From assembly GCA_029785825.1 (NCBI GenBank), contig JAFLYY010000002.1, positions 1-64,000 of the forward strand: 64,000 bases of DNA. The letters are read 5' to 3'. Position numbers and translations under genes: made by a program. This DNA is from Nitrososphaerota archaeon (GTDB taxonomy: Archaea > Thermoproteota > Nitrososphaeria > Nitrososphaerales > Gagatemarchaeaceae). This document shows positions 11,477 through 33,735 of the stretch, piece after piece. How positions within the stretch are numbered: position 1 is the stretch's first letter; the number at the start of each line of letters is the position of its first letter. The notes beneath the pieces are model-generated. The model had not been told where the DNA came from, searched no databases, and saw only the letters and a program-made list of their open reading frames with translations.

Positions 11477-11564
11477 AACTCCTTATATAGAAACAGGAGC
11501 TAACTTATCCGTCGTTCGCGACAAAAATAGTACGTTATGCCTAGTGGTATCTAAAATAAACCTA

Positions 11565-12750
11565 GCTTCTTGCTGGGTTATTCGACGTCCAAACCATTGG
11601 ACGCCCACTTTTTGAGCTTCCTTGCTCATATCGAGATACTCTTGGCTGTCGTACTATCGCATACGCCTTTGCCCCGGATTAGCAACAATCCAAATTACCC
11701 GGGCTACGAAGAGACCTGGTCTAGTACCGAGACATCGGTACCATGCTGGAGCCTCACCTTCCAGCAGCAACTGCCAAACTAAGGCAGATGCGATCAGAGG
11801 ATACGCAATATTTGAGCCACTTATCGGCTCCTGATGACTCCCAGAACACGGAGTCGACATTAACCAGCCACAACCGTTGGCCGAAACTTTGCAGGTAACC
11901 CTGCAGTCTTTGACAGCCAATTGACGACTAAGATTGTGGCGATCTGGTATACACAACAACGGGCACCCAGGAAAAAGACGATGGACACCTGGTATATGCC
12001 CTTGATTTGCAGACCGGAAGAACACACCCAGGAGACGACAGCTTGCCCTATGACGGCAAGGTTCTTACCTGGTCTGCACGAACGCATGCTCTTCGACATA
12101 CAACCAGAACTAGTGGAAAGTTTGGGATGTTGGGACGGAATTAGAAAATGGGGACCTCATATAGGGCGCGCACCCTATACGCAGCGACTTTGGGAAAGTA
12201 GTCGTCCCTCCCGTCGTGCGCCCAACGTCCAAACCCACAAACAGTATCTGGTATGTGCCGATTAAGTGTCGAAAGACACTAGCATGCATCCTGATAGCAA
12301 TAGACCCGGTTCCCCAAGCTGAGAGCCCTGTATTTTCACAAGGCTATGATCCGCCGGGTCCTTTGCTCAGAAACTTATGATCATTGACGGAGCACAACCT
12401 GCCAAGTCGGCCACTTTTGCCGTAGATGCAGTATCATCACCGTTGCGCTCCTTGGTGAGGGAACCGCCCCCCACTTACCTTTTTGCTTATCTCTGATGAC
12501 AGCCTACTGTCCCGAGGCTCTAGGAGCAAGACCGAGAGACTCTGACTTCCGTGCATTATCTCGCCTGGAAGCAGTAACCGAGTTCCTAATACCAAAGTCC
12601 GTGCATTGGCCTGGCCCTGCTGAGCTACCCGCCCCATAATAGCGGGAGCATTGGAAGGCAGGAGCCTACTGACCATCAGGCGGGCTTCCGGTTGTTAAGA
12701 ACTCAGGAGCATGTAATGCCGCATGCAGAGACCATAACTCAAAGGAGTTG
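11565..12750 (+). ncRNA. Large structured noncoding RNA candidate A
   Basis: No convincing gene is present over about 1.2 kb, but strong helices follow one another. They include 11586-11603 (7 bp), 11725-11740 (6 bp), 11744-11766 (7 bp), an 8-bp stem 12008-12015/12071-12078 enclosing a 6-bp stem 12042-12047/12055-12060, and 12303-12309/12354-12360 (7 bp). A 9-bp stem with one mismatch joins 12389-12398 and 12442-12451. The hairpin 12265-12280 has a GAAA loop, which is a stable GNRA loop only if the plus strand is transcribed. No rRNA, tRNA or RNase P signature was seen. The ends are approximate. Confidence 0.5.
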
Positions 12751-12756
12751 AGAACC

Positions 12757-12906
12757 ATGAACATAAAAACAATGTGCATAGTTATGTGTGTTGTGTCTGC
12801 ATCCACTGCAGCAATTGCCATCTTCATGATGGTACATGGATACCCACATCCACCGGGCTTTTTGCCACCAATTCGTGCATTCGCGTCATCTAGGAACGTG
12901 GTGTAG
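12757..12906 (+). CDS. Small membrane or secreted peptide (49 aa)
   Basis: The ATG at 12757 follows GGAGTTG with good spacing. The product starts with a hydrophobic segment (CIVMCVVSASTAAIAIFMM) and continues with a short Pro-rich tail. It ends one base before the next membrane-protein gene, so the two are probably co-transcribed. Not recognised. Confidence 0.5.
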   Translation: MNIKTMCIVMCVVSASTAAIAIFMMVHGYPHPPGFLPPIRAFASSRNVV

Positions 12907-12907
12907 G

Positions 12908-13237
12908 ATGAGAGCAACAACTACACTGGCAATAGTTGCAGTAGCTGCGGTCATCGCTCTGTCGGTGCTGTTCGCAATGTCAACAACATTCAGCTACACC
13001 AGTAGTAACACAGTCACTAAAGGAAATACTATCACCACAACCTATTGGTCAGTGGCATCCTCAGTGCCAACTATCACCAACTCAGCAGTATCTATCAGGG
13101 CGCCAATTACTGTAATCACACCAAACGAGATGACAACCTTGGTAGTCATAGCGTTAGTGACAGGATTGGGCTTTCTCATTGGCCGGCATTTGGGACTACA
13201 CCTCACACAGACTCGTTCGCCCCAGGCGATCACTTAG
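12908..13237 (+). CDS. Secreted or membrane-anchored protein (109 aa)
   Basis: The product has an N-terminal signal-like segment (residues 5-26, LAIVAVAAVIALSVLFAMST), a Ser/Thr/Asn-rich extracellular middle and a C-terminal membrane segment (about 82-99). ATG 12908 lies directly after the stop of the preceding small membrane gene. The composition suggests a small surface protein. Not recognised. Confidence 0.55.
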   Translation: MRATTTLAIVAVAAVIALSVLFAMSTTFSYTSSNTVTKGNTITTTYWSVASSVPTITNSAVSIRAPITVITPNEMTTLVVIALVTGLGFLIGRHLGLHLTQTRSPQAIT

Positions 13238-13313
13238 GCACCATACAAGGTACAATAAGTGCAGCATAGGAAAGGCGGATCTAACCAATCTGGCTTTTCC
13301 TACTCCTGTTCTG

Positions 13314-13442
13314 ATGGAGTCAATCCGCTCAAAACCTCTAGTCCAGAAATGGATTACTCTCGAAAGGGAGATGACTCCACATGAGGTTGTGAAGCTGGAA
13401 GTCGGTTGCAGAGACAATCCTGTAACAACCGACTCAAAATAA
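13314..13442 (+). CDS. Small protein of unknown function (42 aa)
   Basis: An ATG at 13314 opens a 42-codon frame with ordinary composition (RSKPLVQKWITLEREMTPHE). No motif is visible. It lies between a membrane-protein gene and a group of hairpins. Weakly supported. Confidence 0.35.
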   Translation: MESIRSKPLVQKWITLEREMTPHEVVKLEVGCRDNPVTTDSK

Positions 13443-13463
13443 GCCATTCAAATCACGAAACAG

Positions 13464-13556
13464 TCCTGACAGCAGAGCGGCAGGACGCCGCTCCACCGCC
13501 GGACCCCGACGCTGCTTAGAACAGCGTCCATTGCATACCTTTGCCGGGTATGCAAC
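13464..13556 (+). terminator. Cluster of three hairpins ending the preceding unit
   Basis: Three hairpins follow one another: GAGCGGC/GCCGCTC (13475-13493), GACGCTG/CAGCGTC (13508-13528) and GCATACC/GGTATGC (13533-13553). They are followed by a TATA box for the next unit. They could be a 3' end structure or a small structured RNA. Confidence 0.4.
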
Positions 13557-13575
13557 TTTGTAAAAGGGGTTTGGA

Positions 13576-13582
13576 TATATAA
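13576..13582 (+). promoter_or_regulatory. TATA box
   Basis: TATATAA in a gene-free stretch predicts transcription starting near 13602-13606, upstream of the small-gene cluster at 13.7-14.6 kb. The leader would be about 100 nt. Confidence 0.45.
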
Positions 13583-13707
13583 GCTATGCGCTCATTTAGT
13601 AGGTGCAGGGCTTCAAAAGTGTGGAGAGCACGGCTTCTGTGTAGCAGCTGTCACGTCTGTCACTGAGATGGAGGGCGACGCCAACTGGGTTGAAAGGAGG
13701 TGGTACT

Positions 13708-13827
13708 TTGGCGTCAGTACAACCACGTATGTCGGAACTCCACAAGGAGTTCAGAGCTGCCTACGACGACCGGGACTACATGCCGGGGACATTCATGTTC
13801 TCGACAACGGAGGTGGACTCGGAGTGA
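13708..13827 (+). CDS. Small protein of unknown function (39 aa)
   Basis: The TTG at 13708 is preceded by a strong Shine-Dalgarno sequence (AAAGGAGGTGG). The product (SELHKEFRAAYDDRDYMPG in the middle) has normal, charged composition. It overlaps the next frame by GTGA. An alternative longer frame from ATG 13668 to 13940 covers the same DNA but has a less natural middle part. Confidence 0.4.
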   Translation: MASVQPRMSELHKEFRAAYDDRDYMPGTFMFSTTEVDSE

Positions 13828-13940
13828 GCGGGCTGGTCGAGGTAGCGAGCCCAACAAAGGGACTGTCAGAGTACTACGACGAAGGCTCTGGGGTCTTCAT
13901 CGGCGTCGGCGTTCCCAGCGACAACGCGGAAAGCTGGTAG
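13824..13940 (+). CDS. Small protein of unknown function (38 aa)
   Basis: This frame starts with GTG overlapping the stop of the preceding small gene (GTGA). It ends GVFIGVGVPSDNAESW. It could instead be the end of a 90-residue protein starting at 13668. Not recognised. Confidence 0.35.
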   Translation: MSGLVEVASPTKGLSEYYDEGSGVFIGVGVPSDNAESW

Positions 13941-13943
13941 ATA

Positions 13944-14144
13944 GTGCCGTTGGACATTATCTCCCAGGTGCTAGAGCCGCACGTTGGACTCGAAGAAGCC
14001 GAGGACGTCATCAATGCAGTGTGGGAAGACCCCACGGCATATTGTGAGTCTGCAGTCGAATGGGCTGAATGCGTCCTTGAAGACGCAGACTACCGTGCCA
14101 AAACGTCTTCAGCGGCACTGAAGTGGCTGGCTAATCTCAATTAG
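13944..14144 (+). CDS. Small acidic protein (66 aa)
   Basis: A GTG start lies 3 nt after the previous stop. The product is acidic and helical (LEEAEDVINAVWEDP, then ESAVEWAECVLEDADY). No family is recognised. The tight spacing puts it in the same small-gene operon. Confidence 0.5.
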   Translation: MPLDIISQVLEPHVGLEEAEDVINAVWEDPTAYCESAVEWAECVLEDADYRAKTSSAALKWLANLN

Positions 14145-14211
14145 CCACCATCCACTTTCTGACCAAGTCATTGTCTCCAAACCAGCCCACTATGCCTCGA
14201 GAGAGGGAGAC

Positions 14212-14385
14212 TTGGCTCGCTGGTGTGAGAGCAATCCCGCCCAAATGCTCCTGATAGCCCAGGAGACGGGGTGGAACGGGTTCGAGAAGCCCGGAATGAT
14301 CGCATCCTGTATGGCGGCCTCCATTGTGAGTTGCCTGGCCCGGGTGCTGGACGAAATCCTCGTCAGACGCAAGAAAGCCTTCTGA
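14212..14385 (+). CDS. Small protein starting LARWCESN (57 aa)
   Basis: The TTG at 14212 follows GAGAGGGAGA. The product has a moderately hydrophobic middle (MIASCMAASIVSCLARVLDE) and a basic end (RRKKAF), so it may touch the membrane. The DNA around its start is repeated at 27505-27540, where the frame LARWCEN is quickly closed. Confidence 0.45.
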   Translation: MARWCESNPAQMLLIAQETGWNGFEKPGMIASCMAASIVSCLARVLDEILVRRKKAF

Positions 14386-14396
14386 AGGCGACAAAC

Positions 14397-14645
14397 TTGG
14401 ACGAAAACAAATGTGCACGAGACGCAAACTGGCATGGACCAATACTAGAAGACCCTAACCTCATCATAGAGGTAAAGCAGACCAGGGTTGAACAGGTTGG
14501 TCCATGCCACTACTGTAGTTCCTTCAGCGGAACTCAGGCAGAGCTGTCTAGGCACTACCAGGGAATCGGAATGCCGCAGTGTACATACTATCAGAACTCT
14601 GCGTTCTTAAGTGTGAGCACGCGGTCCCGGCCTGGAGACGACTAG
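14397..14645 (+). CDS. Small zinc-finger-like protein (82 aa)
   Basis: This TTG-started frame 12 nt after the previous stop encodes CHYCSSFSGTQAELSRHYQG followed by PQC, which could hold one zinc ion (C..C...H...C). The N-terminus is charged. It closes the small-gene operon before structured region D. Function unknown. Confidence 0.5.
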   Translation: MDENKCARDANWHGPILEDPNLIIEVKQTRVEQVGPCHYCSSFSGTQAELSRHYQGIGMPQCTYYQNSAFLSVSTRSRPGDD

Positions 14646-14649
14646 GACA

Positions 14650-15105
14650 GCACCAACCCAAGCCCTGGCCTACAAGCTAGGGCCGTTTATGGTAATCACA
14701 CGGCTCCATATTTTCACACCGTTCATGTGTGGAGCGAAGCGGCTGGTATCCGCATCTTCTGCTTACGTTAGCAGATCTCTACCCCAAATCCTGGATAGGT
14801 TACGGCTTTCCAACTAGAGCTCAAGGGAGCCGCATAAAACTCAGACCTTGAAACAAGAAGCTCTCCGCAGCCGCCCCATCCCTACACGGGTGGCATAGGT
14901 CTCAGCAGCCAAAGAGTATGAGGCTGCGCAGGTCTAGCGAACCAAATCGCAACGACCGGGAGATGTGGGTTGCCAGAAGGGCATCCCGGTCTTACGCTAA
15001 AATGAAAACCTACTTCGGTATACTGCCGTAAATCAGTCCCTAAGAAGTTCCTGGTTGGCATCAGGAGCAGAGGCAATTATTGCCCGGACCGCCCGCTAGG
15101 GCTAT
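14650..15105 (+). ncRNA. Structured noncoding RNA candidate D
   Basis: About 460 nt without a plausible gene hold strong helices: GCTCCA/TGGAGC (14703-14735) with an inner CACA/TGTG, TCTGCT/AGCAGA near 14770, GCAGCC/GGCTGC near 14910, and GACCGGGA/TCCCGGTC (14954-14961 with 14984-14991). Its 3' end has the GGCAATTATTGCC hairpin that recurs before the gene at 15936. It could be the long leader of the repeat-protein gene or a separate RNA. Confidence 0.4.
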
Positions 15106-15119
15106 TCGTTATTGTGGGT
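15066..15119 (+). promoter_or_regulatory. Leader element with GAGGCAATTAT...GTGGGT motif
   Basis: The stretch before the repeat-protein gene reads GAGGCAATTATTGC, a gap, then TTATTGTGGGTATG. The same two blocks in the same order precede the gene at 15936 (15860-15935). GGCAATTATTGCC folds as a hairpin. A shared cis-regulatory leader is likely. Confidence 0.4.
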
Positions 15120-15773
15120 ATGTCAAATACCAAACCGACGGAAAACATCGCTGGGATGACCGCCAATTTTGAGAACGGCGGTCTTGCTCAGGGAAAGGTG
15201 GGTGACTACTACTTCCACATCCATCACGGCGTCCTCGTCGAGCGGCTCACCGAACCACTCGAGAACAGGATCGCCTACATAAAGGCCAACAAGCCTGCCA
15301 ATGAGATCGCAACCAGATTGCGGCTCATCAGACCGGCAGTAGGAGTAGAACAGATCTTCAAGGCCTACGACGAGGTAATGGTACCTGCCTGGAAGACCTA
15401 CAGCGAGGCAAAGGCATCTGCCGGGAAGACCTACTACGAGGTAAGGGCATCTGCCTGGAAGACCTACGACGAGGCAACGGCATCTGCCTGGAAGACCTAC
15501 GACGAGGCAACGGCATCTGCCTGGAAGACCTACAGCAAGGCAAGGGCATCTGCCTGGAAGACCTACTACGAGGTAAGGGCATCTGCCTGGAAGACCTACG
15601 ACGAGGCAACGGCATCTGCCTGGAAGACCTTCAACGAGGCGGTGGCATCTGCCGAGAAGACCTACGACGCGGCGGTAGCACCTGCCAGGAAGGCCTTCAA
15701 CGAGGCGGTGGAGGCGCTGCATGCTGAGCAGTGCCCCAACTGTCCATGGAATGGGGAGACAATCTTCCCATAG
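15120..15773 (+). CDS. Decapeptide-repeat protein (ASAWKTYDEA repeats)
   Basis: The 217-residue product (GTG 15114 is the alternative start) has a unique N-terminal 85 residues, then about 11 tandem copies of a ten-residue unit, consensus A-x-A-W-K-T-Y-x-E-A, over residues 88-200. It ends with a short tail that has CPNC. The repeat should form a long amphipathic helix or coil with evenly spaced Trp, Tyr and Lys. Repeats of this sort occur in unnamed microbial and phage proteins. It could be structural or a length ruler. A good terminator follows. Confidence 0.75.
   Translation: MSNTKPTENIAGMTANFENGGLAQGKVGDYYFHIHHGVLVERLTEPLENRIAYIKANKPANEIATRLRLIRPAVGVEQIFKAYDEVMVPAWKTYSEAKASAGKTYYEVRASAWKTYDEATASAWKTYDEATASAWKTYSKARASAWKTYYEVRASAWKTYDEATASAWKTFNEAVASAEKTYDAAVAPARKAFNEAVEALHAEQCPNCPWNGETIFP
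15379..15713 (+). repeat. 30-bp tandem repeats inside the decapeptide-repeat gene
   Basis: About 11 in-frame 30-bp units such as GCATCTGCCTGGAAGACCTA follow head to tail, with variation concentrated in the last third of the unit. Near-identical central copies suggest recent expansion by slippage or recombination. Confidence 0.8.
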
Positions 15774-15783
15774 GACCTGCTCT

Positions 15784-15809
15784 GGCCCCAATTCATTGGG
15801 GCCTTTTTT
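15784..15809 (+). terminator. Hairpin plus T-run terminator
   Basis: GGCCCCAAT pairs perfectly with ATTGGGGCC around a 2-nt loop, followed directly by TTTTTT. It ends the repeat-protein transcript. Confidence 0.75.
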
Positions 15810-15935
15810 GATTGATACGTAATCCAAGCGCCTATGATGCCCTGGTCTAGCACCCAGGCCTGAGGCAATTATCGCTGCTGATAGTGTAACAGCTACCAGC
15901 GTGGGCTGAGCTCAGCTCACAATAGTGGGTGTCAT

Positions 15936-16196
15936 ATGCAAACTCAGTTGCAGCACCAGACGAGCCCCCGTGTAGGGAGCATAAGTGCGGCTTCATCCGC
16001 ATCCCCCGCTGACAACAGCGGTCTCCTGCCACCAAAGCTGACATATGAATATCGGTGGCCACGGGTGGTCAAGCAGATCACCTGGTACGACTCGACCGAC
16101 TACTATCCGGAGGACAGAATCGCAACCTCCGCAAAACCATCGCCTCAGTTCGTCGGCGGCTATATGCTGCTGGTGAATGACAACAAGGAGGAGTGA
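15936..16196 (+). CDS. Unknown protein (86 aa)
   Basis: The product has a Ser/Gln-rich N-terminal 30 residues and an aromatic middle (YEYRWPRVVKQITWYDSTDY). No family is recognised. ATG 15936 follows the shared leader motif, and its stop overlaps the next start (GTGA). It heads a five-gene unit reaching 18015. Confidence 0.5.
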   Translation: MQTQLQHQTSPRVGSISAASSASPADNSGLLPPKLTYEYRWPRVVKQITWYDSTDYYPEDRIATSAKPSPQFVGGYMLLVNDNKEE

Positions 16197-16924
16197 GAAT
16201 AGTCTTGTGTGAACTTCTCACAATCGAAATGGAAGACATGGCAACATCATTCCTCCGACGGGTGTACTCCTACGGTGACTACGTGGGTGTGCCTCGCCGC
16301 GACAAGGAAGGCAAGGAGACGCGCATCTCCGATGTCTGCGATGCCCTCTGGGCCAGAGGTCTCCTAGTAAGGGACGTCGAGGATCCAGAGTATCTGTACT
16401 ACAACCTCTCGGAAGGCGGCAGGAAGGTCGTCGAGACCATCGGCGCGTTTCCGAAGGCAGTCGAAGCCATGTGTGATAAGCTCTGGTTCGACTGTCCGGA
16501 CCAGCCAACTGCCACAATCCGAGCAACATACCAGTGCGCCGTGAAGTCATGCAGAGCCAAGTTCTCCACCATTAATGAGCTCAAGGGCCACTACAGCAAC
16601 GAATCATACCAAGACGACGGCAGCTTCAACTTCACAGAGAAGAGCCCAGAGCACAACGCGTTCCGGAAAGCCTGGATCGGCGTCATTGATGCCTATCAGT
16701 ACGGGACGCACCCGCTCGCCAAGGAACACAAAGACCACTTTGCCCCATGGAACGGACCATACGCCCAGTATCGTCGCTACAACCGCATAGGTGCTCCAAT
16801 CTGCCAATGGTGCTCGATGGGAATCCATGAGCATGGCGCAGAGGAACGCGGCGGCAATGATTGCAAAGTCATCCTAATCGAAGGTGGGCAATGCAATTGT
16901 TGGTGGGGATATCGGAGGGACTAG
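16193..16924 (+). CDS. Winged-helix / zinc-finger protein
   Basis: The 243-residue product starts with a helical region like a winged helix (residues about 35-85, ISDVCDALWARGLLVRDVED, then LSEGGRKVVE), the pattern of archaeal transcription regulators. A C2H2-type finger follows (YQCAVKSCRAKFSTINELKG, then H), and a Cys-rich end has CQWC, C and CNC. It is probably a DNA- or RNA-binding regulator. The GTG start overlaps the preceding stop. Confidence 0.55.
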   Translation: MRIVLCELLTIEMEDMATSFLRRVYSYGDYVGVPRRDKEGKETRISDVCDALWARGLLVRDVEDPEYLYYNLSEGGRKVVETIGAFPKAVEAMCDKLWFDCPDQPTATIRATYQCAVKSCRAKFSTINELKGHYSNESYQDDGSFNFTEKSPEHNAFRKAWIGVIDAYQYGTHPLAKEHKDHFAPWNGPYAQYRRYNRIGAPICQWCSMGIHEHGAEERGGNDCKVILIEGGQCNCWWGYRRD

Positions 16925-16926
16925 AT

Positions 16927-17286
16927 ATGGACCAAACACAACCATTTCCATACAGAACGACGAAGACTGACCCTGATGATTTGGAGTTTTGGCTTCGGCC
17001 AACAGATCCAGATCTTGGCAGAGCCTTCCTCAGACGCGCTGCGTTTGCCTATCAGTACAGTATATCACCATACGAAGACCTACTCATGGCAGCCGTCGAA
17101 GCAAAGACAATCGCAGAAAAAGCGAAGCCACTCAGCGAAGAACAGATCCACATGACCAAGGTCGCAACATGCCTCCTCAAGTTGGCGGACGCCGTCTTCG
17201 ATGATTGGGGATGTGACCATTGGTCCCCCCTTGTTGATGACGACGGGATGCCATACCTGGAAGCAACATACCAGGAGGTAACATAG
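16927..17286 (+). CDS. Unknown acidic protein (119 aa)
   Basis: ATG 16927 lies 2 nt after the previous stop. The product is largely helical (LRRAAFAYQYSISPYEDLLM, then AAVEAKTIAEKAKPLSEEQI) and acidic. No motif is recognised. It is part of the 15.9-18.0 kb unit. Confidence 0.55.
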   Translation: MDQTQPFPYRTTKTDPDDLEFWLRPTDPDLGRAFLRRAAFAYQYSISPYEDLLMAAVEAKTIAEKAKPLSEEQIHMTKVATCLLKLADAVFDDWGCDHWSPLVDDDGMPYLEATYQEVT

Positions 17287-17287
17287 A

Positions 17288-17821: not shown

Positions 17822-17826
17822 GTACA

Positions 17827-18015: not shown

Positions 18016-18029
18016 GGCACCTTCCCCCC

Positions 18030-19175
18030 TTTGGCCCCAATGGCTCACCTCCACGTGGTGGGGCCGGACTCTTCGCAAGCAGAGACAGCCTGAATTGACA
18101 GGCATTACGAGCCAACAATATACCCCTCAGCGTTCTGAGAGGACGTTGAGACGTTATTGCTTGCTCCGGTAAGAGGAGCAGCATTGGCAGTGCGCACACG
18201 CGCATGCGGCAATCATACGCAGCCAAGAGAGATTCTTGCGTAGACGCCGAGGCCAGGCATAGTCAGATTAGTAGCGCCCAGGTCGATAATTCCTCCTGGT
18301 GACATTGTCTGACAAGTCCATCGGCCTGCGAGCGTCCGCAACGGGATTGTCTCCCGCAGATTCCTCCGCTGTATGGAGAACGCCAGCCAACAATATCTCT
18401 TACCTTCGCCAGCTCCTGGCTAGAGCAGGTCGTCGTAACCGAACTTGTCTGAAAGCTAACGGATACCACAAGCGCCACTCCAACACCATACATTGGGTGG
18501 AGTACAGAGAAAACAGGCGCCCAAGCAAGATGACAAGTAGCCCAGGTTGTTCGATTGGTCTCGAACGACAGCTAGTCCTAGGCTAGCAGCTAAACCCCTT
18601 TGCCTGACCATTAAGATGCTCGTTGAAGCCGGCTTCTTGACTGGCTGCGCCCTTCTTTCAGTGGCAACAGCAGCCAAGCAACGAGCATCTCAAAGGCAAT
18701 TCCTTCAGAAAGGGGTACCAAATCCGGTACTGGATTGCAAATAATCGCAAGCTTCGATGTGCACCATTTTCGTAGCATATCATAGCTTCCACACAGCTAG
18801 TCACTGTGAGACCAACGAGGTTATCTTGTAATCTGCTTTCCGGTTTGGTCGAATCAACATACATAGAACGTATGACATTGTCGAACACGCGTCCAAAGTT
18901 ACCTGCAAGATCCCCGTTGGAATCCAATCAACGGGTCCGGCTTCAATAAAAAAGTGGGGCAACCTTCTACCATTCGGAGGGGCCACATATTGCAGGGTTC
19001 ACCTTCTGGACAAGCCGCTCGTGGTGTCATACTTACTTTCAGAACTACTAGTAGGAAGAGGGCTGGAGAGGTCTCCTGGGTTATTGCTCCCAGGGTTCTC
19101 CAGAACCCCCACGCCGTAATCTGACGGGCGAAAGCCCGGCCTCCCCGACTAGGAAAACCTAGCGGGAGCGAGGTA
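18030..19175 (+). ncRNA. Large structured noncoding RNA candidate B
   Basis: About 1.15 kb has no supported gene but dense helices. The clearest is a perfect 12-bp stem (18614-18625 with 18679-18690) closing a junction with GAAGCC/GGCTTC (18625-18636) and GGCTGC/GCAGCC (18643-18675). Others are CCCGTTG/CAACGGG (18913-18935), GGGTTC/GAACCC (19093-19108), CGGGC-GAAA-GCCCG (19125-19138) and a long arm 19141-19168 with a CTAGG-AAAA-CCTAG tip. GNRA-type loops favour plus-strand transcription. The last three hairpins lie just before the gene at 19182 and might be its leader. Ends are approximate. Confidence 0.5.
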
Positions 19176-19181
19176 AAGAAA

Positions 19182-20081: not shown

Positions 20082-20458
20082 GCTTCCAATACACCATCCC
20101 AGCCGAAGTCAGACAAACTCTCGGCGTAGGCCCCGAGCCAGTTCTTCAGAAGAATGACGGGTGCCCATGGAAATTGACCCCTAAGGAATACGCCCTGATG
20201 GCTGCTGATGCAAAACATGACCAAGAAACGGAAGCGAGGGGTAGAAGAGAGAGGGCCAGGCGAGAAGCCGAGTTTCTCAGGGTCCACAAGTGTGAACCCA
20301 AGTTGTTAGACCCGAATACATGCCTATGGTGTAGCAAATCTATGCCGCTTCCTCCAAGCAAGAGCGAACGCCTAAGAGCAATCCAGGCATCAAATATGAA
20401 ATCGTCGGGTAGGAGGTCGGCCTACTACGACGCCATACTCAGGAGTGACAAGAGATGA
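20078..20458 (+). CDS. Small basic protein with a Cys pair (126 aa)
   Basis: The product is highly charged. A helical Arg/Glu-rich stretch (TEARGRRERARREAEFLRVH) is followed by CLWCSKSM, a possible half zinc site. ATGA overlaps link it to the nuclease-like gene before and the nucleotidyltransferase after. Not recognised. Confidence 0.55.
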   Translation: MSFQYTIPAEVRQTLGVGPEPVLQKNDGCPWKLTPKEYALMAADAKHDQETEARGRRERARREAEFLRVHKCEPKLLDPNTCLWCSKSMPLPPSKSERLRAIQASNMKSSGRRSAYYDAILRSDKR

Positions 20459-21963
20459 CAAGTCCCAAGAACACAACAAGGGTAATTGAGCTCCCGCCAG
20501 AGATAATCACCATCCTGGCACAGGTAAATGACATCTCCGTCAGGACCACAGGGATACCTGCGTACATCACCGGCGGATTTGTACGTGACCACCTCTTGGG
20601 GATTGGAGACTACCACGACATCGATGTCAGCGTCCCGGACGCAGATGCCGTGTTCAAGCTCGCCAATTTGAAGTTCGTGCCTTCCGGCGAAAGCAAGACA
20701 GAGTTCGGTGTCCAGTCAGTGTTCGTTCCGCTTGGTAGCGGGGTGACCGGCAGGCTCGACATCGTACAGCTAAGGTCGGAAGCATATAGGGCTGACTCCA
20801 GGAAACCAACAATCAAGCCAACCACTGACATCATCTTCGACCTCTCTAGGCGCGACTTCACACGCAATGCCATCGCGTGGAAGCTGGTCTCCTTCAATAA
20901 TGCCAGTGTTACGGTCGAGGAAATCGACCCATTCAACGGCATAGGCGACTTGCTCTACTACAAGGTAATCAAGGCGGTTGGCGACCCAAACGAGCGCTTC
21001 TTCGAGGATCCCCTGAGGATCATGAGAGCCGTACGGTTTGCCACCAAACTTGACAACGTCGTCATCGACATCAACACACAGAAGTCTATCACCAGCAATG
21101 TCAATCGCCTACAGGATGGCGGACCAGTATCCAGAGAAAGGATTGTCGACGAGCTTACCAAGATCCTCGTCCTGCCAAATGCAGGCAAGGGTGTCAAAAT
21201 GCTCTTCGACCTCGGGATACTCCAATTCCTCATCCCGGAGTTTGCCGAAGCTGGAAACATCCGGCATGACAACCGCGGGGGGCACCATGGCGAAACAATC
21301 ATAGAGCATACCGCCGAGGCGGTATCACGAATAGCTCCAGAACCAACCCTGAGAATAGCCGCTCTCTTACACGACGTCGGCAAAACCAGTGTCTACAGTT
21401 CAGTCGACGGAAAGAAGCACTTCTTCGTCAAAGACCCCGAAACGGGAAGAACAGTTGGGCATGAGTCCGTCTCAGCAGAAGTAGCTGCTAGACGCCTCAA
21501 AGAACTGAAGTTCCCAAGCAGCATTGTGCGTGAAGTGACCACACTGGTCAAGTTCCACATGAGGCTGCATATGGTCAGCAAGGACAGCGACGAGTCGAAA
21601 CGCAAGTCTATGGCAAAGGTCTACATCTCTCTCAGGAGAGACGCCAACCTCATAGACAAGCTCATCAAGCTCGGCGAAGCTGATTCGGGACAGTCTTATG
21701 CGTACTTCAGCGAACTCCTCAACGAATACTCACATGTCAAGCTTGTCAATGGGCTGGACATACTCGCAATCGAGCCAGGTCTTGACACCACCAATCCAAA
21801 GGTCCTTGAAAGAGCACTCAGAGAGACACAGGTACAGCAGTTGAGCAGAGGTTGGACGTTTCCAAAGCTCGTCGGCGTCATGAAGAACAACATCAACAAT
21901 GCCAAGAAGCCATCCGATGATGCAAGAAAGAGTACTGTAATTGAGGCAAAGGTGGAACAATGA
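20455..21963 (+). CDS. Class II CCA-adding-type tRNA nucleotidyltransferase with HD domain
   Basis: The 502-residue product has the bacterial-type (class II) nucleotidyltransferase head. GGFVRDHLLG is followed by the metal-binding DIDVSVPD, then RRDFTRNA, then ERFFEDPLRIMRAVRFA. An HD phosphohydrolase domain follows (HHGETIIEHT, ALLHDVGK, H at VGHE). This is the layout of bacterial Cca with an HD domain, which adds CCA to tRNA 3' ends and can trim 2',3'-phosphates. Archaeal hosts normally use the unrelated class I enzyme. It may repair or tail tRNA or the element's own RNAs. It overlaps both neighbours by ATGA. Confidence 0.85.
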   Translation: MTSPKNTTRVIELPPEIITILAQVNDISVRTTGIPAYITGGFVRDHLLGIGDYHDIDVSVPDADAVFKLANLKFVPSGESKTEFGVQSVFVPLGSGVTGRLDIVQLRSEAYRADSRKPTIKPTTDIIFDLSRRDFTRNAIAWKLVSFNNASVTVEEIDPFNGIGDLLYYKVIKAVGDPNERFFEDPLRIMRAVRFATKLDNVVIDINTQKSITSNVNRLQDGGPVSRERIVDELTKILVLPNAGKGVKMLFDLGILQFLIPEFAEAGNIRHDNRGGHHGETIIEHTAEAVSRIAPEPTLRIAALLHDVGKTSVYSSVDGKKHFFVKDPETGRTVGHESVSAEVAARRLKELKFPSSIVREVTTLVKFHMRLHMVSKDSDESKRKSMAKVYISLRRDANLIDKLIKLGEADSGQSYAYFSELLNEYSHVKLVNGLDILAIEPGLDTTNPKVLERALRETQVQQLSRGWTFPKLVGVMKNNINNAKKPSDDARKSTVIEAKVEQ

Positions 21964-23311: not shown

Positions 23312-23339
23312 CCTTCATCCCTTTTCTTTTCACTATCCC

Positions 23340-23700
23340 TTGACTCACAAGCTGGAGCAATCCAGCTATGGCATGCATGGGCGAGATAGCCCCTCTGTAA
23401 TGCCCGTACGCGTTCCTAAGTGAACGCAGGTGGGATGGTACACCCTCAGGGTGCAAATGAGTCACCGCGTTGAAAGACAGCCCCACTCAGGGCGCCAGGC
23501 GGTAACTGGCAAAGAGCTTTGGCACCGCAAGACTAGGACCCGGAGCGAACTATCCTCAACTCCATGCGCAACTCACCACCGCGCCCCATAGAGGCACCAC
23601 GGTATCAGTGAGAGCGTTATGAAGGCAGGGACGCTTTGAAGGTACTACATTCTACGGAAGCCAGAGGGTTGTAGGCATGCGGGCGCGAGTCCGCGTGTAT
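23340..23700 (+). ncRNA. Structured noncoding RNA candidate E
   Basis: A gene-free stretch of about 400 nt contains AGCTGGA-GCAA-TCCAGCT (23350-23367, a GNRA loop on the plus strand), GGGC/GCCC just after it, GCGTTC/GAACGC (23410-23427), CACCCT/GGGTG (about 23440) and CCAG/CTGG (about 23500). It lies between the hydrolase gene and a small-gene cluster. Confidence 0.42.
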
Positions 23701-23717
23701 CAAGGAGTGAAACAACC

Positions 23718-23999: not shown

Positions 24000-24020
24000 A
24001 TTGGAGGAAAGTGAAGAAAC

Positions 24021-24813: not shown

Positions 24814-24816
24814 TAG

Positions 24817-25074: not shown

Positions 25075-25079
25075 TAACA

Positions 25080-25598
25080 ACATAGCGGAAAACGGGTAAT
25101 TTTATTGCCCCGGCCCGCTATTATATGCACCTCATGGGTCAGCCGACCAGCCGGTAACCAAACACATACCCAAAAGGGGCGGCTAGGCGAGGTGCGGGCA
25201 CTGTTTTGTCAGCGGCCAATGACCTTTTACCTCTGCGCAGAGGGCTGCGGTCATCCTTGGGCTGATCACCCTTGGATGGACCGATCCGGCTCATGCCCTT
25301 TCCTTCGACCTACCATGCACAACCACGGCTTCAACCGTGGTATCTGGAGGCGACAACCCGGTGCCGGGAATCAATGATTGCCGCGCTTCTCTTCGGAGAA
25401 GCCTCCGGTCCATGAGAACCGAGAAGGGCAACCTTGCAGAAAGCGTTCTCTGTTCTGCATTGTATGCCACTTTCATTCCCTCTTCTTGAAGTGTAAAACC
25501 ATACCAAGCTGCCTGAAGCTGATAAATAGCTTCAAGGCCTCCGATATCCAGTCAATTTATCAGAACTGGTGACCAAGTGCTTGGATTACGATGGTTAC
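25080..25598 (+). ncRNA. Structured noncoding RNA candidate F
   Basis: About 520 nt without a convincing gene hold strong helices. ACCACGG/CCGTGGT lies at 25322-25341. GCTTCTC-TTCG-GAGAAGC (25385-25402) is a C(UUCG)G tetraloop hairpin when read on the plus strand. GCCTGAAGCT pairs with AGCTTCAAGGC (25511-25538), and CGGTCATCC pairs with GGATGGACCG around 25250-25285. Its 5' end has AATTTTATTGCCCCGG, similar to the leader element near 15070. Confidence 0.48.
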
Positions 25599-25599
25599 G

Positions 25600-25606
25600 T
25601 TTTAAG
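25600..25606 (+). promoter_or_regulatory. TATA-like box before the surface protein gene
   Basis: TTTTAAG here predicts a transcript start near 25627, downstream of ATG 25612. That favours ATG 25660, which has GGAGG upstream at 25632-25636, as the real start. Confidence 0.4.
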
Positions 25607-25659
25607 AAGACATGGAGGAATGTGACAATGAGAACAAACAATGGAGGTACAAGGAAGCT

Positions 25660-27441: not shown

Positions 27442-27468
27442 GGGCGCTTAGCGCTCCTCCCGTTTTTT
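27440..27468 (+). terminator. Hairpin plus T-run terminator
   Basis: AGGGGCGC pairs with GCGCTCCT (one mismatch) around TTA, and six T follow at 27463-27468. It overlaps the stop codon of the surface-protein gene. Confidence 0.65.
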
Positions 27469-27702
27469 GACCAAGGCACCGGTTCCATACCAGCTTCACC
27501 CGAAAGGGGCGACTTGGCGCGCTGGTGTGAGAACAAAAGTCGTCCTACCTGAGAAGCATGGAGAGACCCATGTCTGCTTGCGTTAAATTGGCCGAGCCCC
27601 CTATAGGGCAACTTGACCACAAAGACACGCAGGCCGGCATCTCTTCAAGGCTTCCAGAGCGGCGCAACACGACGGCTGAACACATGGAGGTGAAATCAGC
27701 CT
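27469..27702 (+). other. Gene-free structured stretch with an IS-like leftover frame
   Basis: This 234-nt stretch has CCAGC/GCTGG enclosing CCC-GAAA-GGG near 27489-27525. It also has a copy of the DNA around the start of the gene at 14212 (GACTTGGCGCGCTGGTGTGA), followed by an early stop. It may be a smaller member of the structured RNA set or a decayed gene start. Confidence 0.35.
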
Positions 27703-28280: not shown

Positions 28281-28860
28281 AACTGTCCAGGAAACACAAG
28301 AAGTGATAGAACTGAAATCAATGGACATGGTGTACGAGCGCTTTCACAAGTGCAAAACTCAAAAGACACAACTAAAGGAAATCTCCACTCAGATCAGGCA
28401 GATGTTGACATTGGACCTTCCGCCTCTTGAGCAGCGGCTCGCAACAAGGCTGTTAGCAAAGCTTGAAACAGCAATTGAACAGCCAATTGACATAATGACC
28501 ACGGGATACCCGCCTCTCACAGTGAAACTGCGACCCAGCGCTGTGGAAGATGGGTGCTTCGTAACAGCCATACCAATCTATAACTTCATATCGCTAGCGA
28601 AGCGCGGTATAATCAGCAGTATGAAGTACAACACAGAAGAGCATGAGACGGCCAGACTCGCTTTCTATGATGCTACACTTCCACCAGACTCGGTAGACAA
28701 ATCACTGCTGTTCGCTGCAGCTCCTGAAAACGATGAGCCATATGTGACTCTCGCAACGATACCTCAGAGGGCAATCAACATCCTGAGGGAGAGAGACACA
28801 GACTTCCCATTCGGAAGCTTATTGGTATCCGATGACAATGCCCCATCAACTGTGACCTAG
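28249..28860 (+). CDS. Unknown protein (203 aa)
   Basis: The product has a charged helical N-terminal half (YERFHKCKTQKTQLKEISTQ) and an alpha/beta second half. The frame opens at ATG 28249, overlapping the membrane-protein gene by 32 nt. ATG 28321 is an equally likely start. No motif is recognised. Confidence 0.5.
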   Translation: MLLLPIRHQARTVQETQEVIELKSMDMVYERFHKCKTQKTQLKEISTQIRQMLTLDLPPLEQRLATRLLAKLETAIEQPIDIMTTGYPPLTVKLRPSAVEDGCFVTAIPIYNFISLAKRGIISSMKYNTEEHETARLAFYDATLPPDSVDKSLLFAAAPENDEPYVTLATIPQRAINILRERDTDFPFGSLLVSDDNAPSTVT

Positions 28861-28940
28861 ATGAAAGAACACACAGTTACAACCGATAACGCAGACTTCG
28901 AAATAGCAAAGCAGCTAGCAGCTGTCTGAATCAATTGGGT

Positions 28941-28962
28941 AGGGCCAAACCGCCCTCTTTTT
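28941..28962 (+). terminator. Hairpin plus T-run terminator
   Basis: AGGGC pairs with GCCCT around CAAACC, followed by CTTTTT. A 22-codon frame (28861-28929) lies between it and the previous gene and is too short to call. Confidence 0.55.
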
Positions 28963-28989
28963 ACCCCAAGCCAGCTCTCAATTGGAAGC

Positions 28990-29415
28990 GTGTGCGCAGT
29001 AACCCTGCGCCCCTGTACCCAGGCTCTGCCACCAAAAACCGGCAGAACTGAGCTGGAGGTAAGCACCATCGAGGTGCTCAACGAATTGGAACATACCCAA
29101 TATACCGCCACTCTGGTGTCTAATGACACTGGAGCACGCATCTCCCTCGCAGACATTCTGGACGACATTTCTTCAGTCCAGACGTCGCAGCGAGTTGAGA
29201 CGACCGTCAGCATGTCAAGCAAATCACCTTGGCAAGCCACGAAGAAAACTCCGTTTGAACAAGCACTGACAGAGCTCGAACAGACTGCACTCGAAGCATC
29301 GATCCAGGCTAGAAAAGCGCTTACCCCTCAGGAGGAGTATGCGGCTTGGATGAATCCCATGTCGAGTGAGGAATCTCGATTCCTGGCTCTGATCCACGGC
29401 ACAAGGAGCGACTAA
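28990..29415 (+). CDS. Unknown protein (141 aa)
   Basis: A GTG start opens this frame just after the terminator. The C-terminal half is helical (FEQALTELEQTALEASIQAR). No motif is recognised. It lies 3 nt before the next gene, so the two share an mRNA. Confidence 0.5.
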   Translation: MCAVTLRPCTQALPPKTGRTELEVSTIEVLNELEHTQYTATLVSNDTGARISLADILDDISSVQTSQRVETTVSMSSKSPWQATKKTPFEQALTELEQTALEASIQARKALTPQEEYAAWMNPMSSEESRFLALIHGTRSD

Positions 29416-29418
29416 GCA

Positions 29419-30264
29419 TTGCCAGAACAAGTCAGCACGGCAACAGTAGCAAAGGCAGTAACTGGCATCATCATAGGTGTTGGCTCTGCCCTAAATCCGG
29501 CGAAAATCCCAATCGTTTCCCTCCTGGGAAGCACAACCGTCGAGATCGCTGGTATTGCCCTTGCAGCTGGCAGTGCTACATATGCGATAGAGAAAACTCT
29601 CAAGCACGAGTTTGCCAATCAGGCAGATAGTGTAGCATCACAGGGAAGCCTCTTCCAAACCATCAAGGACCACAATGAGACCGCGATCTCCAAGAAAGGA
29701 GCCGCGCTCTACACTCTGTTCAAGGCGGACGCAGACAAAGTGGTCACCAAGATGGTAGACGACTTCAAGGAGATCACCGCCATTCGTGCCGGTGAGGCCC
29801 AGGATGCACTACTTTCATCAGCAAGGCACCTGCTTGCCGACGCCGGAATGGCACCTCCAACAATCATCGCCGCTCAGCCCGCGCAGCGCACTGAACAGAC
29901 GTCACGACTAGTAGCAGCACCAGAGGACGATCTGGTCGCAATACTCGCCGATGCCGCCGAATCAAAGCCTCTGGGTGAACTCCCCGCATCTTGGGGAAGA
30001 TTGGTCGAAACATGCGGCCTAGTACATAATCCCATACTGAATGCGGCCGCGTTCAAGCACCTTACCGTCAAGGTAGCCAAGCCAGTTACCCCATCGCAGA
30101 AGGTAGCGCAAACAAAGGTAGCGCCAACCAGTGCTGGAAGTGGACAGGTCCAAAAACTACCACAACCGCCTCAGGCAGCAGAAGCAGGCACCCCCAACAG
30201 CTCAACACCACAAATCGATATGGACATACCTACTGCTGATCTATCAGCAGCTACCCAGGCATAG
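29419..30264 (+). CDS. Unknown protein with hydrophobic N-terminus (281 aa)
   Basis: The first 55 residues are Gly/Ala/Ile-rich and hydrophobic (AVTGIIIGVGSALNPAKIPI, then IAGIALAAGSATYAIE), likely one or two membrane segments. A helical domain follows, then a Pro/Gln/Thr-rich tail. It could be a membrane-anchored structural protein. TTG start at 29419. Not recognised. Confidence 0.5.
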   Translation: MPEQVSTATVAKAVTGIIIGVGSALNPAKIPIVSLLGSTTVEIAGIALAAGSATYAIEKTLKHEFANQADSVASQGSLFQTIKDHNETAISKKGAALYTLFKADADKVVTKMVDDFKEITAIRAGEAQDALLSSARHLLADAGMAPPTIIAAQPAQRTEQTSRLVAAPEDDLVAILADAAESKPLGELPASWGRLVETCGLVHNPILNAAAFKHLTVKVAKPVTPSQKVAQTKVAPTSAGSGQVQKLPQPPQAAEAGTPNSSTPQIDMDIPTADLSAATQA

Positions 30265-30279
30265 GTGCAAGTGATCTAC

Positions 30280-32259
30280 ATGAACATAAAACTATCGCCA
30301 GAGCTAGCAGCTGTATCAGCTAACGCAGAACGCCAGGAACGCAAGTGGCACGAGGCTGAACGCGCACAACGCCAAACCGAGCGCATCCAGACGCCGTCGC
30401 CAGTCAAGGTAGATGGTGAATATGATGTCACCATAACCAAGACTAGTAACCGCGGCGATGGCATCGCACTGGTCGAAGGCCTCATAGTCTTCGTCCCCGG
30501 TGCCGAACAGGGGTGGCAGGGCAAGGTCAAGGTAACCAGGGTCTTTGAGAGGGCAGCCACTGCTACAAAGGTGGTCGTACGTGCTCCAATGCCCGAGAAG
30601 GGAGAAGAGTACGACATCACCATCACCGGTAGCGGCAGAGACGAGTCTGGTATCACCAGAATAAATGGCGTCGTCACCTTCGTCAAGGGCGCGCCTGAAG
30701 GCTGGCAAGGCAAGGTGCGGGTCACAGGTATCGGCAAGAGCGGACGTGTGATCTTTGCCGAAAGAACCGACATGCCATCTCCGCCCAGGCAGAGGACGCG
30801 GGTATCTTACGGCCTTCTAGGTGAAGAGGGCACGAAGAAGAAGCGCGACGCCAGCAGAGAGAAGACCAGGGCATACAAGACAAAACGCATCCACGAGAGG
30901 CCTGCAAGACTTCTCAACCAGTCACTCGTTCTTGACAATCAGTTCTGTGCGGTCTGCAAGGCACAAACTGTTGCTATGAAAGATGTGAATGGTAACATAG
31001 TCACCACCCAGGAAGAGCTGGCGGCAGCAAGAGAACTGGGACCAGTCATGAGGGTGAAGATCGCCCACGAGGGATCTCACTCTCCACTACTCAGCTTCCC
31101 GGTGCCCCCGGCTCCTAAGCCAGCTAGCACGACCAAAACATCAAAACTACCCAAGCCTCAGGTACAGGTCAAGAAGACGAAACCGTACAAGCAACCCAAC
31201 CCCAGCTTCAGTATCACCGAACCATCATTCGCTGTCCGCGGAGGTTACTTCAACACCCAGGAGAACAAGATTAGCGATGTACCACCTCGCTTCGTCCCAT
31301 ACGGTGACAACGCGGTCCTCACCACCATCGCCAACAGACCAGGCTCCACAATAGCAGACATTGTAGCAGCCACTGACCTTTCAGTTGCCGAAGTGAAGCA
31401 GGAACTCACAAGTCTTGGCTACAAGCTAGACATCACACGCAAGGGAAGGCACTTTGTCCGTGGCCAGAACGACATCCGGGCCAAGGTCGTCACCGCCCTT
31501 CCTGCCAAACCAGTAACACCGCAAAGGCCGTTGACTGAAGAACTCCAGAATGTCGCCACCTTCAAGGTGGGTAAGCACGTCCTCAGCGACGAGGCATATA
31601 CGATATTCATGGATTCTGTAGTCAACAAGAACGCCCTTGCACAATTTGTCAACCAAGACGCAGAGTCCAAGAAACATACCCTAGCAGACCTTGGGTTCAT
31701 ATCATTCGCCGAAGCATACGGCGCCACCAACGAAATACACCTAACACCAATAGTAACCAATGGGTCCAGAGGCTCACTGTATTACTACCCTGTCGGCGGT
31801 AATACACACTCCAAGTGCTTCCTGAAGAGCACCAAGAAATGCTTCCACCTCAGGATCATCACCACCAACGGCAGACTCCCACAGACCAAACACGCCATGA
31901 TCGACGACTACGGCTTCTACAAGCAAGCCTACGTACCTGTCGATGGAGGCGACACCATCCACTACATCGACGGCGAGTTCCGTAACGGAAAGCCCACCAT
32001 CACTTCCTACAACGCATTCGTTTTCACTGACTTCAGAGACGGCAAGCTCATAGCTACCAGGGACACCGAAAGCAACCCAGCCAGGGTCATCGACAACCTT
32101 GTCAAGCTAGGAGCCGCACAGGGTATGCTGACCCCATACGCCCCCATGAAGGGACACTACTACGCAGCCATATGGCAGCCAATGAACAGGGTCGAACAAG
32201 CCCAGACAGTAGTCGCGGGAAGCCCACAAGCTTCCCCCGGCTCCACCGGGCGCAACTAG
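30280..32259 (+). CDS. Protein with two TRAM domains and a winged helix
   Basis: The product is about 659 residues long (664 from GTG 30265). It has two tandem TRAM-type beta-barrels near residues 37-92 and 105-160, both with the pattern 'Y(D)(V/I)TI...G(D/S)GI....G.(I/V).FV.GA..GWQGKV.V'. TRAM domains bind RNA in tRNA-modifying enzymes and in archaeal cold-response proteins. A Cys pair (CAVC) follows, then a winged helix near 350-400 (IADIVAATDLSVAEVKQELT) and a 240-residue unrecognised C-terminal domain. It is a strong candidate to bind the structured RNAs around it. Confidence 0.65.
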   Translation: MNIKLSPELAAVSANAERQERKWHEAERAQRQTERIQTPSPVKVDGEYDVTITKTSNRGDGIALVEGLIVFVPGAEQGWQGKVKVTRVFERAATATKVVVRAPMPEKGEEYDITITGSGRDESGITRINGVVTFVKGAPEGWQGKVRVTGIGKSGRVIFAERTDMPSPPRQRTRVSYGLLGEEGTKKKRDASREKTRAYKTKRIHERPARLLNQSLVLDNQFCAVCKAQTVAMKDVNGNIVTTQEELAAARELGPVMRVKIAHEGSHSPLLSFPVPPAPKPASTTKTSKLPKPQVQVKKTKPYKQPNPSFSITEPSFAVRGGYFNTQENKISDVPPRFVPYGDNAVLTTIANRPGSTIADIVAATDLSVAEVKQELTSLGYKLDITRKGRHFVRGQNDIRAKVVTALPAKPVTPQRPLTEELQNVATFKVGKHVLSDEAYTIFMDSVVNKNALAQFVNQDAESKKHTLADLGFISFAEAYGATNEIHLTPIVTNGSRGSLYYYPVGGNTHSKCFLKSTKKCFHLRIITTNGRLPQTKHAMIDDYGFYKQAYVPVDGGDTIHYIDGEFRNGKPTITSYNAFVFTDFRDGKLIATRDTESNPARVIDNLVKLGAAQGMLTPYAPMKGHYYAAIWQPMNRVEQAQTVVAGSPQASPGSTGRN

Positions 32260-32293
32260 GCTGGCTTATAGGAAACCAAGGAGATACGAGAAC

Positions 32294-32692
32294 ATGCCAG
32301 AACCACTTACAGTGCAACTCGCAAGACCGCTGAAAGGAGAACAGATCCTGCAGATCCTGAAGGCTGCTGCAGGCAGCTACGGCGCCAAGTACACCGAGTA
32401 TGTCACAGGCAGAACAATAATACTCGGACGCGGTCAGACCAGGGAAGTATTGGCTGGAATCAAGTCAGGGTCACGGGTCATATCAGTCTACTCTGAGAGG
32501 TATACCGGTCAAAGTGACCAGGACCTTTCGATCAACTCCGGCAGACTGTACAGCTCGATAGTGCTCGAGTTCAACGAATGGGGATCCTTCTTACCCCATG
32601 GCAAACTCAGAGCCTCTGACACCCAGGTCTTTGCGAAGAGCCTTATGGATGAGAGCCTAAGGCCTGCTACTCCTACCAGCTCTGAGTGGTAA
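32294..32692 (+). CDS. Unknown protein, paralogue of the 27703 gene (132 aa)
   Basis: It shares its length, order of secondary-structure elements and the FNEWGSFLPHGKL / FNYGCFVSHGQI block with the gene at 27703. ATG 32294 follows AAGGAGATACGA, a good ribosome site. It lies just before structured region C1. Function unknown. Confidence 0.55.
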   Translation: MPEPLTVQLARPLKGEQILQILKAAAGSYGAKYTEYVTGRTIILGRGQTREVLAGIKSGSRVISVYSERYTGQSDQDLSINSGRLYSSIVLEFNEWGSFLPHGKLRASDTQVFAKSLMDESLRPATPTSSEW

Positions 32693-33118
32693 GAGCATTT
32701 GCCAGAAACAACAGTACCACCTGGCAGCTCTAACCCTTTCTCTATTTTGTCCCGAACGCCATCACCTCCGGTCCCTGTCATGGGCTCAGGTTCGGGACGC
32801 TGAATCGACCATCATGTGCCCACCAGGCACAAGTCGATCAGCCCAGGCCGTATCCGCGCCCTACCTGGCCAACATGCCGGGGTGGACTACGCGGCGGCAA
32901 CTCCTGGGGTCAACGGCGCTCCAGCCCAAGCGGCTAGGAAGCCGGCTAACGATGGCCAAAAGGGATCCTACCGTCCACGGTAAACACCTCCAACCGTGCA
33001 ACCACCGATCTTCGCAAGGGAGGAGAACAGAACGGCTTTCCAAAAGGAAGGTGACAGAGGGCACTCCAAGGTGGGATACTCGGGGTCTAACCCCGACGGT
33101 AGGAACACCCTTTTTTCG
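32693..33118 (+). ncRNA. Structured noncoding RNA candidate C1 with terminator
   Basis: Helices are unusually strong here: GAGC+TGCCAG with CTGGCA+GCTC (32693-32730), GTCCCGAAC/GTTCGGGAC (9 bp, 32749-32757 with 32790-32798), and TCGAC+TGTGCC with GGCACA+GTCGA (32805-32837). A perfect 10-bp long-range stem joins 32966-32975 to 33095-33104. It is followed within 7 nt by TTTTTT (33111-33116), as if the long arm ended the transcript. No gene is supported inside. Confidence 0.55.
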
Positions 33119-33190
33119 ACGTAACTCTTTCTGGTCTCCCAAGTTACGTCGAAAATAGTTTGCCGTCCAAGTCGACAAACGTCGTAGTCC

Positions 33191-33200
33191 TTTATATATT
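33191..33200 (+). promoter_or_regulatory. TATA box for structured RNA C2
   Basis: TTTATATATT sits in a gene-free stretch just after the T-run that ends C1. It predicts a transcript start near 33217-33222, at the head of region C2. Confidence 0.55.
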
Positions 33201-33217
33201 AGCAAGGGCTCGACATC

Positions 33218-33735
33218 TGTCAATTCGACAAAAAACACACTCAAGAGTGTTAGAGTGTTCTGTATCTCGTGGTCCAAAATCACGGGATTTTTGCTGTCTG
33301 CCCTTTGTGGCTTGACAGCCAACTATTGGTGATCAAAAATGAGTATTCTCTCACCACATTTCGGCCCGAGATCCGTTGAAAAGCCGTGCAAGTCGGCTAG
33401 ACCATGCAAATGGGCATGGTTGATGGGGTAATCAAGCCCCTCGAAATTGGCGAAACCGCCATCTCCACGCGGAGATGGTTTGCAGGCACGTGCCTGCTCG
33501 CCAATCCGGAAGTATTCGATCTCTCAAGTTAATCTCGGGAGATTGGGGCCGCCCCTGTGGGGGCGGTTCCGTTTGCTGGTTCAGGCTGGCTTGTATGGTT
33601 GTGGACAACCTTGGCAGTTGATCTATCGAGACTATTGGTGTTTTGCCTCGGCTTATGCGACCGTTTTCTTTCGCATACCTGCTGTATTGCGAGCCTGTCG
33701 CCATGCATCTGTATGGGATGTACCAGGTTCGGTCT
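33218..33735 (+). ncRNA. Structured noncoding RNA candidate C2
   Basis: A three-way junction is closed by ATTGGCG/CGCCAAT (33446-33452 with 33499-33505). It contains two 8-bp hairpins, CCATCTCC/GGAGATGG (33459-33478) and GCAGGCAC/GTGCCTGC (33482-33497). Around it are AGCCG/CGGCT (33382-33398), ACCATGC/GCATGGT (33401-33420), GGGG/CCCC (33424-33440) and CCGCCCC/GGGGCGG (33549-33566). With a TATA box upstream and no supported gene, this is the best single ncRNA candidate. The 3' end may be near 33575 or extend to 33735. Confidence 0.6.

Follow-up and report, generated by a model that had tools for sequence, protein, structure and literature searches.

A 22-kb segment of an archaeal contig probably encodes about nine large structured RNAs on its plus strand, which we consider to be free RNAs rather than leaders of messenger RNAs, with a probability of roughly 60%. 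The window, i.e. the whole stretch of 64,000 nucleotides that was analysed, covers the first 64,000 of the 154,010 bases of a contig (hereafter C2) from an archaeal genome of 1.97 Mb in eight contigs. An archaeal Rfam model matches the host 16S rRNA gene, whose sequence we take to be of Nitrososphaeria type. Among the gaps tested, a strong, mostly well-defined and plus-strand-biased folding propensity is limited to this segment plus one further stretch of C2. The predicted RNAs (Table 1) would alternate with short groups of protein genes, on a contig bearing mobile-element genes.

Table 1. Predicted RNAs, promoter-like elements and RNA-related genes in the window (z, folding energy relative to dinucleotide shuffles).
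Feature	Position	Strand	Description
TATA-like box, archaeal	11482..11489	+	CTCCTTATATAG; RNA 1 start predicted at ~11509
RNA 1	11509..12757	+	~1.25 kb, structured; z -8.2 on plus, -6.4 on minus
RNA 2	13238..13667	+	430 nt, structured; z -5.4; two GNRA loops; absent from the original prediction
RNA 3	14647..15113	+	0.47 kb, weakest member; z -2.9 to -3.5
Short structured spacer	15774..15935	+	z -4.0; GC hairpin then T6, poly-T at 15804
RNA 4	18016..19181	+	1.17 kb, structured; z -7.1 to -7.2 on plus, -5.9 on minus
CCA-adding enzyme/poly(A) polymerase, bacterial type	20455..21963	+	HD domain; Pfam PF01743, PF12627, PF01966
RNA 5	23312..23717	+	0.4 kb, structured; z -2.7 to -3.9; three GNRA loops
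RNA 6	25075..25611	+	0.54 kb, structured; z -4.5 to -4.8; one TTCG loop
RNA 7	27442..27702	+	0.26 kb, structured; z -2.5 to -3.2; absent from the original prediction
Double-TRAM protein	30265..32259	+	664 aa, two TRAM (RNA-binding) domains; Pfam PF01938, two stretches
RNA 8	32693..33116	+	0.42 kb, structured; z -4.3 to -5.4 on plus, -2.2 to -3.5 on minus
TATA-like box	33191..33198	+	CCTTTATATATTAG; RNA 9 start predicted at ~33218
RNA 9	33218..33757	+	0.54 kb, structured; z -6.6/-7.9

Folding energy relative to shuffled sequences and controls

The original prediction had singled out seven gene-free stretches as structured RNA regions. These are indeed gene-poor; the overlapping open reading frames have weak codon scores and no convincing protein frame was found within them. 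When their initial coordinates were compared with 60 dinucleotide shuffles, all seven folded below the shuffles, with plus-strand z between -2.8 and -8.6. The values (plus/minus strand) were -8.3/-5.9 at 11.57-12.75 kb, -2.8/-1.1 at 14.65-15.11 kb, -8.6/-6.3 at 18.03-19.18 kb, -3.4/-2.2 at 23.34-23.70 kb, -3.0/-3.0 at 25.08-25.60 kb, -4.1/-2.0 at 32.69-33.12 kb and -7.7/-7.9 at 33.22-33.74 kb, two of the seven being more than 8 standard deviations better than shuffles. Genes were also re-called with a codon model and the gaps between them folded. All gaps of at least 160 bases at 11.5-33.76 kb had a plus-strand z between -2.9 and -7.2, while the other gaps of the window (34.1-60.4 kb) ranged from +2.1 to -1.2. 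The set thus proved larger than seven, with the addition of 13238-13667, 15774-15935 and 27442-27702 (z -5.4, -4.0 and -3.2, respectively); 28861-29418, which is largely coding, and 13668-14645, which holds short frames, were left out. Overall, the two 1.2-kb stretches have a plus-strand z of about -7 to -8 and the remaining ones a z of -2.5 to -7.

Coding controls outside the segment gave a plus-strand z of +0.1 to -2.4 in five cases out of six and -3.1 in the sixth. The host 16S rRNA, used as a yardstick, reached -5.6 in its sense orientation and -2.6 in the antisense one, and RNA 1 and RNA 4 therefore surpass the ribosomal standard. The stretches thus show the energies well below shuffles by which large structured noncoding RNAs are generally recognized. 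Outside the window, a further structured stretch is present at C2 100.17-100.98 kb (L004:16170-16975; z -6.0 on plus, -6.2 on minus); among the other large gaps folded at C2 64-144 kb none stands out, one being borderline (-1.8).

The coding parts of the segment (11.5-33.8 kb) are themselves slightly more structured than those located elsewhere (-0.97 versus -0.37 and +0.23), also when compared with synonymous-codon shuffles (-1.06 versus -0.47 and +0.26), and the signal may therefore belong in part to the whole transcript and not to separate RNAs. Taken to its limit, this would mean that the entire 22-kb plus-strand RNA is folded, coding and noncoding parts alike, for instance as a protection against nucleases or RNA-targeting defence. 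We regard this as very unlikely, the noncoding stretches being more strongly structured than the coding parts (mean over 200-nt windows of -1.62 versus -0.97).

Ensemble definition, loops and strand

The spread of the structural ensemble, measured as the mean base-pair distance per nucleotide and compared with 20 shuffles, lies under all 20 for RNAs 2, 5, 7, 8 and 9, for the 3' half of RNA 1 and for the 5' half of RNA 4; this is not the case for RNA 3, RNA 6 and the 5' half of RNA 1. RNA 3, which corresponds to the predicted member at 14.65-15.11 kb, thus folds below shuffles, but does not surpass them in ensemble definition. In minimum free-energy folds of the 1.2-kb RNAs, the details are unreliable.

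GNRA or UUCG loops making sense on the plus strand had also been described. GNRA loops are indeed enriched, with nine on the plus strand and none on the minus strand, against 1.5 +/- 1.1 in shuffles (maximum of 4 in 40), but only a single UNCG loop was found. Among the bases unpaired on the plus strand, 38.5% are A. K-turn-like motifs are not enriched, and neither tetraloop receptors nor motifs common to the stretches show a clear enrichment. Uninterrupted helices of at least 11 pairs are not in excess in the stretches either, which rules out long inverted repeats as the source of the folding signal and suggests that it arises, as in natural RNAs, from many helices of ordinary size.

Plus-strand z is below minus-strand z in eight of the nine stretches and this asymmetry, together with the GNRA enrichment, points to plus-strand RNA. 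The exception to the proposed plus-strand sense is RNA 9 (33.22-33.74 kb) which, like the stretch at C2 100.17-100.98 kb, is strand-ambiguous by z, both strands folding equally well. RNA 9 nevertheless favours the plus strand, because the six G-U pairs of its 17-bp closing helix (33382-33398 / 33584-33600) become A-C mismatches on the opposite strand.

The equal folding of RNA 9 on either strand could also reflect a structure at the DNA level, that is, an origin of replication or transfer composed of inverted repeats and located chiefly at 33.1-33.76 kb. GC skew switches sign near 33 kb, and an inverted repeat (TTTTCGACGTAACT/AGTTACGTCGAAAA), possibly an origin or a two-way terminator, lies close by, between RNA 8 and RNA 9 (~33110-33155). 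We consider such an origin very unlikely as the explanation of the folding signal: the other stretches point to RNA by their GNRA loops and better plus-strand z, long inverted repeats are not enriched, and the closing helix of RNA 9 depends on its G-U pairs.

Promoter-like elements and neighbouring genes

TATA-like boxes are found on the plus strand at 11482, 13574 (within RNA 2) and 33191, and all well-scored genes between RNA 1 and RNA 9 are on the same strand. Transcription in archaea starts at a characteristic spacing from the TATA box, from which the RNA starts of Table 1 were predicted. RNA 1 and RNA 9 each have a TATA box on one side and a start codon on the other, which for RNA 1 is that of a gene for a small membrane-protein-like product. 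RNAs 3, 4, 5, 6 and 7 are followed, at once or at a short distance, by the start codons of plus-strand gene groups, RNA 4 being located immediately 5' of the group that contains the CCA enzyme. RNAs 1, 3, 4, 5 and 9 extend as far as the codon itself. Since several stretches directly precede start codons, and two of them just follow a possible promoter, some may be long leaders. The claim of a set of giant noncoding RNAs is partly supported, by folding, strand asymmetry and GNRA loops, but may not extend to every stretch.

The main rival to free RNAs therefore takes the stretches for leaders and spacers of polycistronic mRNAs, structured and very long, which would act in cis and never be released, stabilizing the transcript, hiding or exposing ribosome sites and separating gene groups. 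The mild structure of the coding parts of the segment is also in line with it. We nevertheless give this explanation a modest chance, as the 3' end of RNA 8 is a T6 tract (33111) followed by the TATA box that precedes RNA 9, an arrangement expected of separate transcripts. No leader with dense structure over more than 1.1 kb is known to us either, known leaders being far smaller. Termination at U-tracts has been described in archaea (PMC8716108).

Several repeats were observed in and around the stretches. Two 30-nt copies (14205-14234 and 27507-27536) are 90% alike, the first in a weak frame and the second in a noncoding gap; they may represent a coding relic or a shared RNA motif. Tandem 33-nt repeats (15294-15755) encode an 11-residue repeat within a 219-aa gene (15114-15773).

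Element and RNA-related genes

Both ends of C2 look chromosomal, the left one with a glmS-like gene followed by a TnpB-like gene, and the right one with five tRNA genes. The TnpB-like gene (OrfB_IS605 / Cas12f1-like, 2481-3182) flanks the element on its left side. Between these ends are found a TraG/VirD4-like gene, three GHKL-type proteins, a topoisomerase IA, ParB, Orc1/Cdc6 and an RNA ligase. The TraG/VirD4-like protein (6452-10615; PF12696 and PF02534) contains, close to its start, an intein splicing domain, and C2 thereby carries the VirD4/TraG-like ATPase gene by which archaeal integrative-conjugative elements are recognized; matches to it are present in 32 other genomes out of 250, some of them only to the intein part. 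The three paralogous proteins of ~750 aa (53253-55442, 57604-59889 and 61533-63785) show a weak GHKL-ATPase signal, with 31-32% identity to the first, and related proteins occur in seven further genomes of the order; we take them to be rIIA-like. Since relatives of TraG and of the GHKL-type protein lie on contigs from other members of the order, three of which have both, this type of element is found elsewhere too. No second copy of the tRNA-Ser 3' end that could serve as an attachment repeat was found in the window, nor were the exact ends of the element located. As judged from its gene content, notably the intein-containing TraG/VirD4-like gene, ParB and Orc1/Cdc6, the assignment of C2 to a mobile archaeal element is supported, in agreement with the original prediction of an archaeal-type element.

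The contig also encodes several RNA-related proteins, of which the CCA/poly(A) polymerase, the RNA ligase and the double-TRAM protein are rare in the order. The CCA/poly(A) polymerase matches CCA-adding enzymes of the PDB (E 2e-24); out of 300 genomes of the order, two encode such an enzyme, this one included. The closest PDB entry to the RNA ligase (C2 89.24-90.31 kb, L004:5238-6305; PHROG 968) is the Naegleria gruberi RNA ligase (E 1e-68), an enzyme that seals nicks in duplex RNA, and among 201 genomes of the order this ligase is found in the present genome only. The double-TRAM protein is unlike the order's standalone TRAM proteins and, among the matches listed, its relatives in the order cover the TRAM part only. 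An RNase_T-type exonuclease is encoded at 40774-41412. TRAM proteins have been described as archaeal RNA chaperones (PMC5572242, PMC6705878). For the proteins of C2, we infer a link with the predicted RNAs from their shared location only.

Search for known families and homologues

At the gathering score, no Rfam match was obtained in the window or at C2 64-144 kb, and with E<=5 no GOLLD, ROOL or OLE match was found at 11.4-34 kb. Neither Rfam nor ARAGORN returned a match of the stretches to group I or group II introns, rRNA, tRNA, RNase P or SRP, which upholds the view that they belong to no known RNA family. No tRNA gene was detected in the window or at C2 64-144 kb. An integron cassette array was ruled out, there being no repeat family common to the stretches.

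DNA searches gave only chance matches for the 18-kb stretch in 250 genomes of the order and no homologue for the 11.6-kb stretch in plasmids or for three stretches in phages. Single-sequence covariance models retrieved no homologue, whether built on parts of RNA 8 and RNA 1 (34 loci) or on part of RNA 8 (46 genomes of the family). Searches through proteins encoded nearby or elsewhere on the contig (the TRAM protein, the CCA enzyme and the RNA ligase) led to no useful homologue, and neither did those of viral contigs with the rIIA-like family, an AAA protein, TraG, the C2 79.2 kb protein and a surface-type protein. The rIIA-like protein and TraG each led to related elements, in which the gaps examined near these genes do not fold, and the structured segment therefore looks like cargo absent from such elements. 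One exception, in the related element of another genome, is a gap with many palindromic GTGGTACCA repeats (L078:13370-14110, z -9.1).

Comparison with known systems

GOLLD, ROOL and OLE RNAs have Rfam models, and the ROOL RNA that has been studied has 659 nt while many GOLLD RNAs exceed 800 nt (PMC12286853). Like GOLLD and ROOL, which are large, elaborate, carried by mobile elements and of poorly known function (PMC12286853), the RNAs predicted here are large and lie on a contig with mobile-element genes; they differ by having no Rfam match and, whereas GOLLD and ROOL often sit near tRNA genes, no adjoining tRNA island, by the occurrence of several unrelated RNAs in one element and by their archaeal host. 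OLE RNA is also large (about 600 nt) with dense helices and has known protein partners in bacteria (PMC9723947). It is, however, a bacterial class, and the stretches here have no Rfam match. Large untranslated leaders and riboswitches are likewise placed ahead of gene groups, but the stretches are much longer and match no known riboswitch or leader family.

Thaumarchaeal integrative-conjugative elements, which reportedly exceed in size the three other complex classes of integrated elements, share with C2 a VirD4/TraG-like ATPase and ParB (PMC6563490). Their reported median size is 64 kb (PMC6563490), compared with a contig of 154 kb here on which the ends of the element are unmapped, and the word 'noncoding' does not appear in that report.

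Proposed model and implications

Transcription would start at TATA boxes, at least those at 11.48 and 33.19 kb, and would continue through the gene groups, as suggested by the sequence. Each stretch is predicted to fold into a compact multi-helix domain, a model that builds on the computed folding propensity. The RNAs would then persist as stable bodies, possibly freed by processing of a long transcript, and might be kept in repair by the double-TRAM protein, the CCA/poly(A) polymerase and the RNA ligase, as gene content hints. By analogy with what GOLLD and ROOL may do for phages, we would guess that they are most likely structural or regulatory for the element. That the RNAs are transcribed, processed and active in trans is thus our inference.

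A bolder version of this model, in which the element carries around ten giant structured RNAs, unrelated to one another, plus its own RNA chaperone, end-adding enzyme and ligase, has a rather small chance of being correct; if true, it would represent an archaeal RNA-based machinery without known counterpart. Bacteria and their phages are known to encode giant structured RNAs. If the RNAs predicted here are real, they would constitute a new set of giant RNAs and, as a dense set in one archaeal element beside genes for an RNA ligase, a CCA enzyme and a TRAM protein, would offer a natural place to probe the function of such molecules. Their existence would bear on whether archaea possess giant structured RNAs at all.
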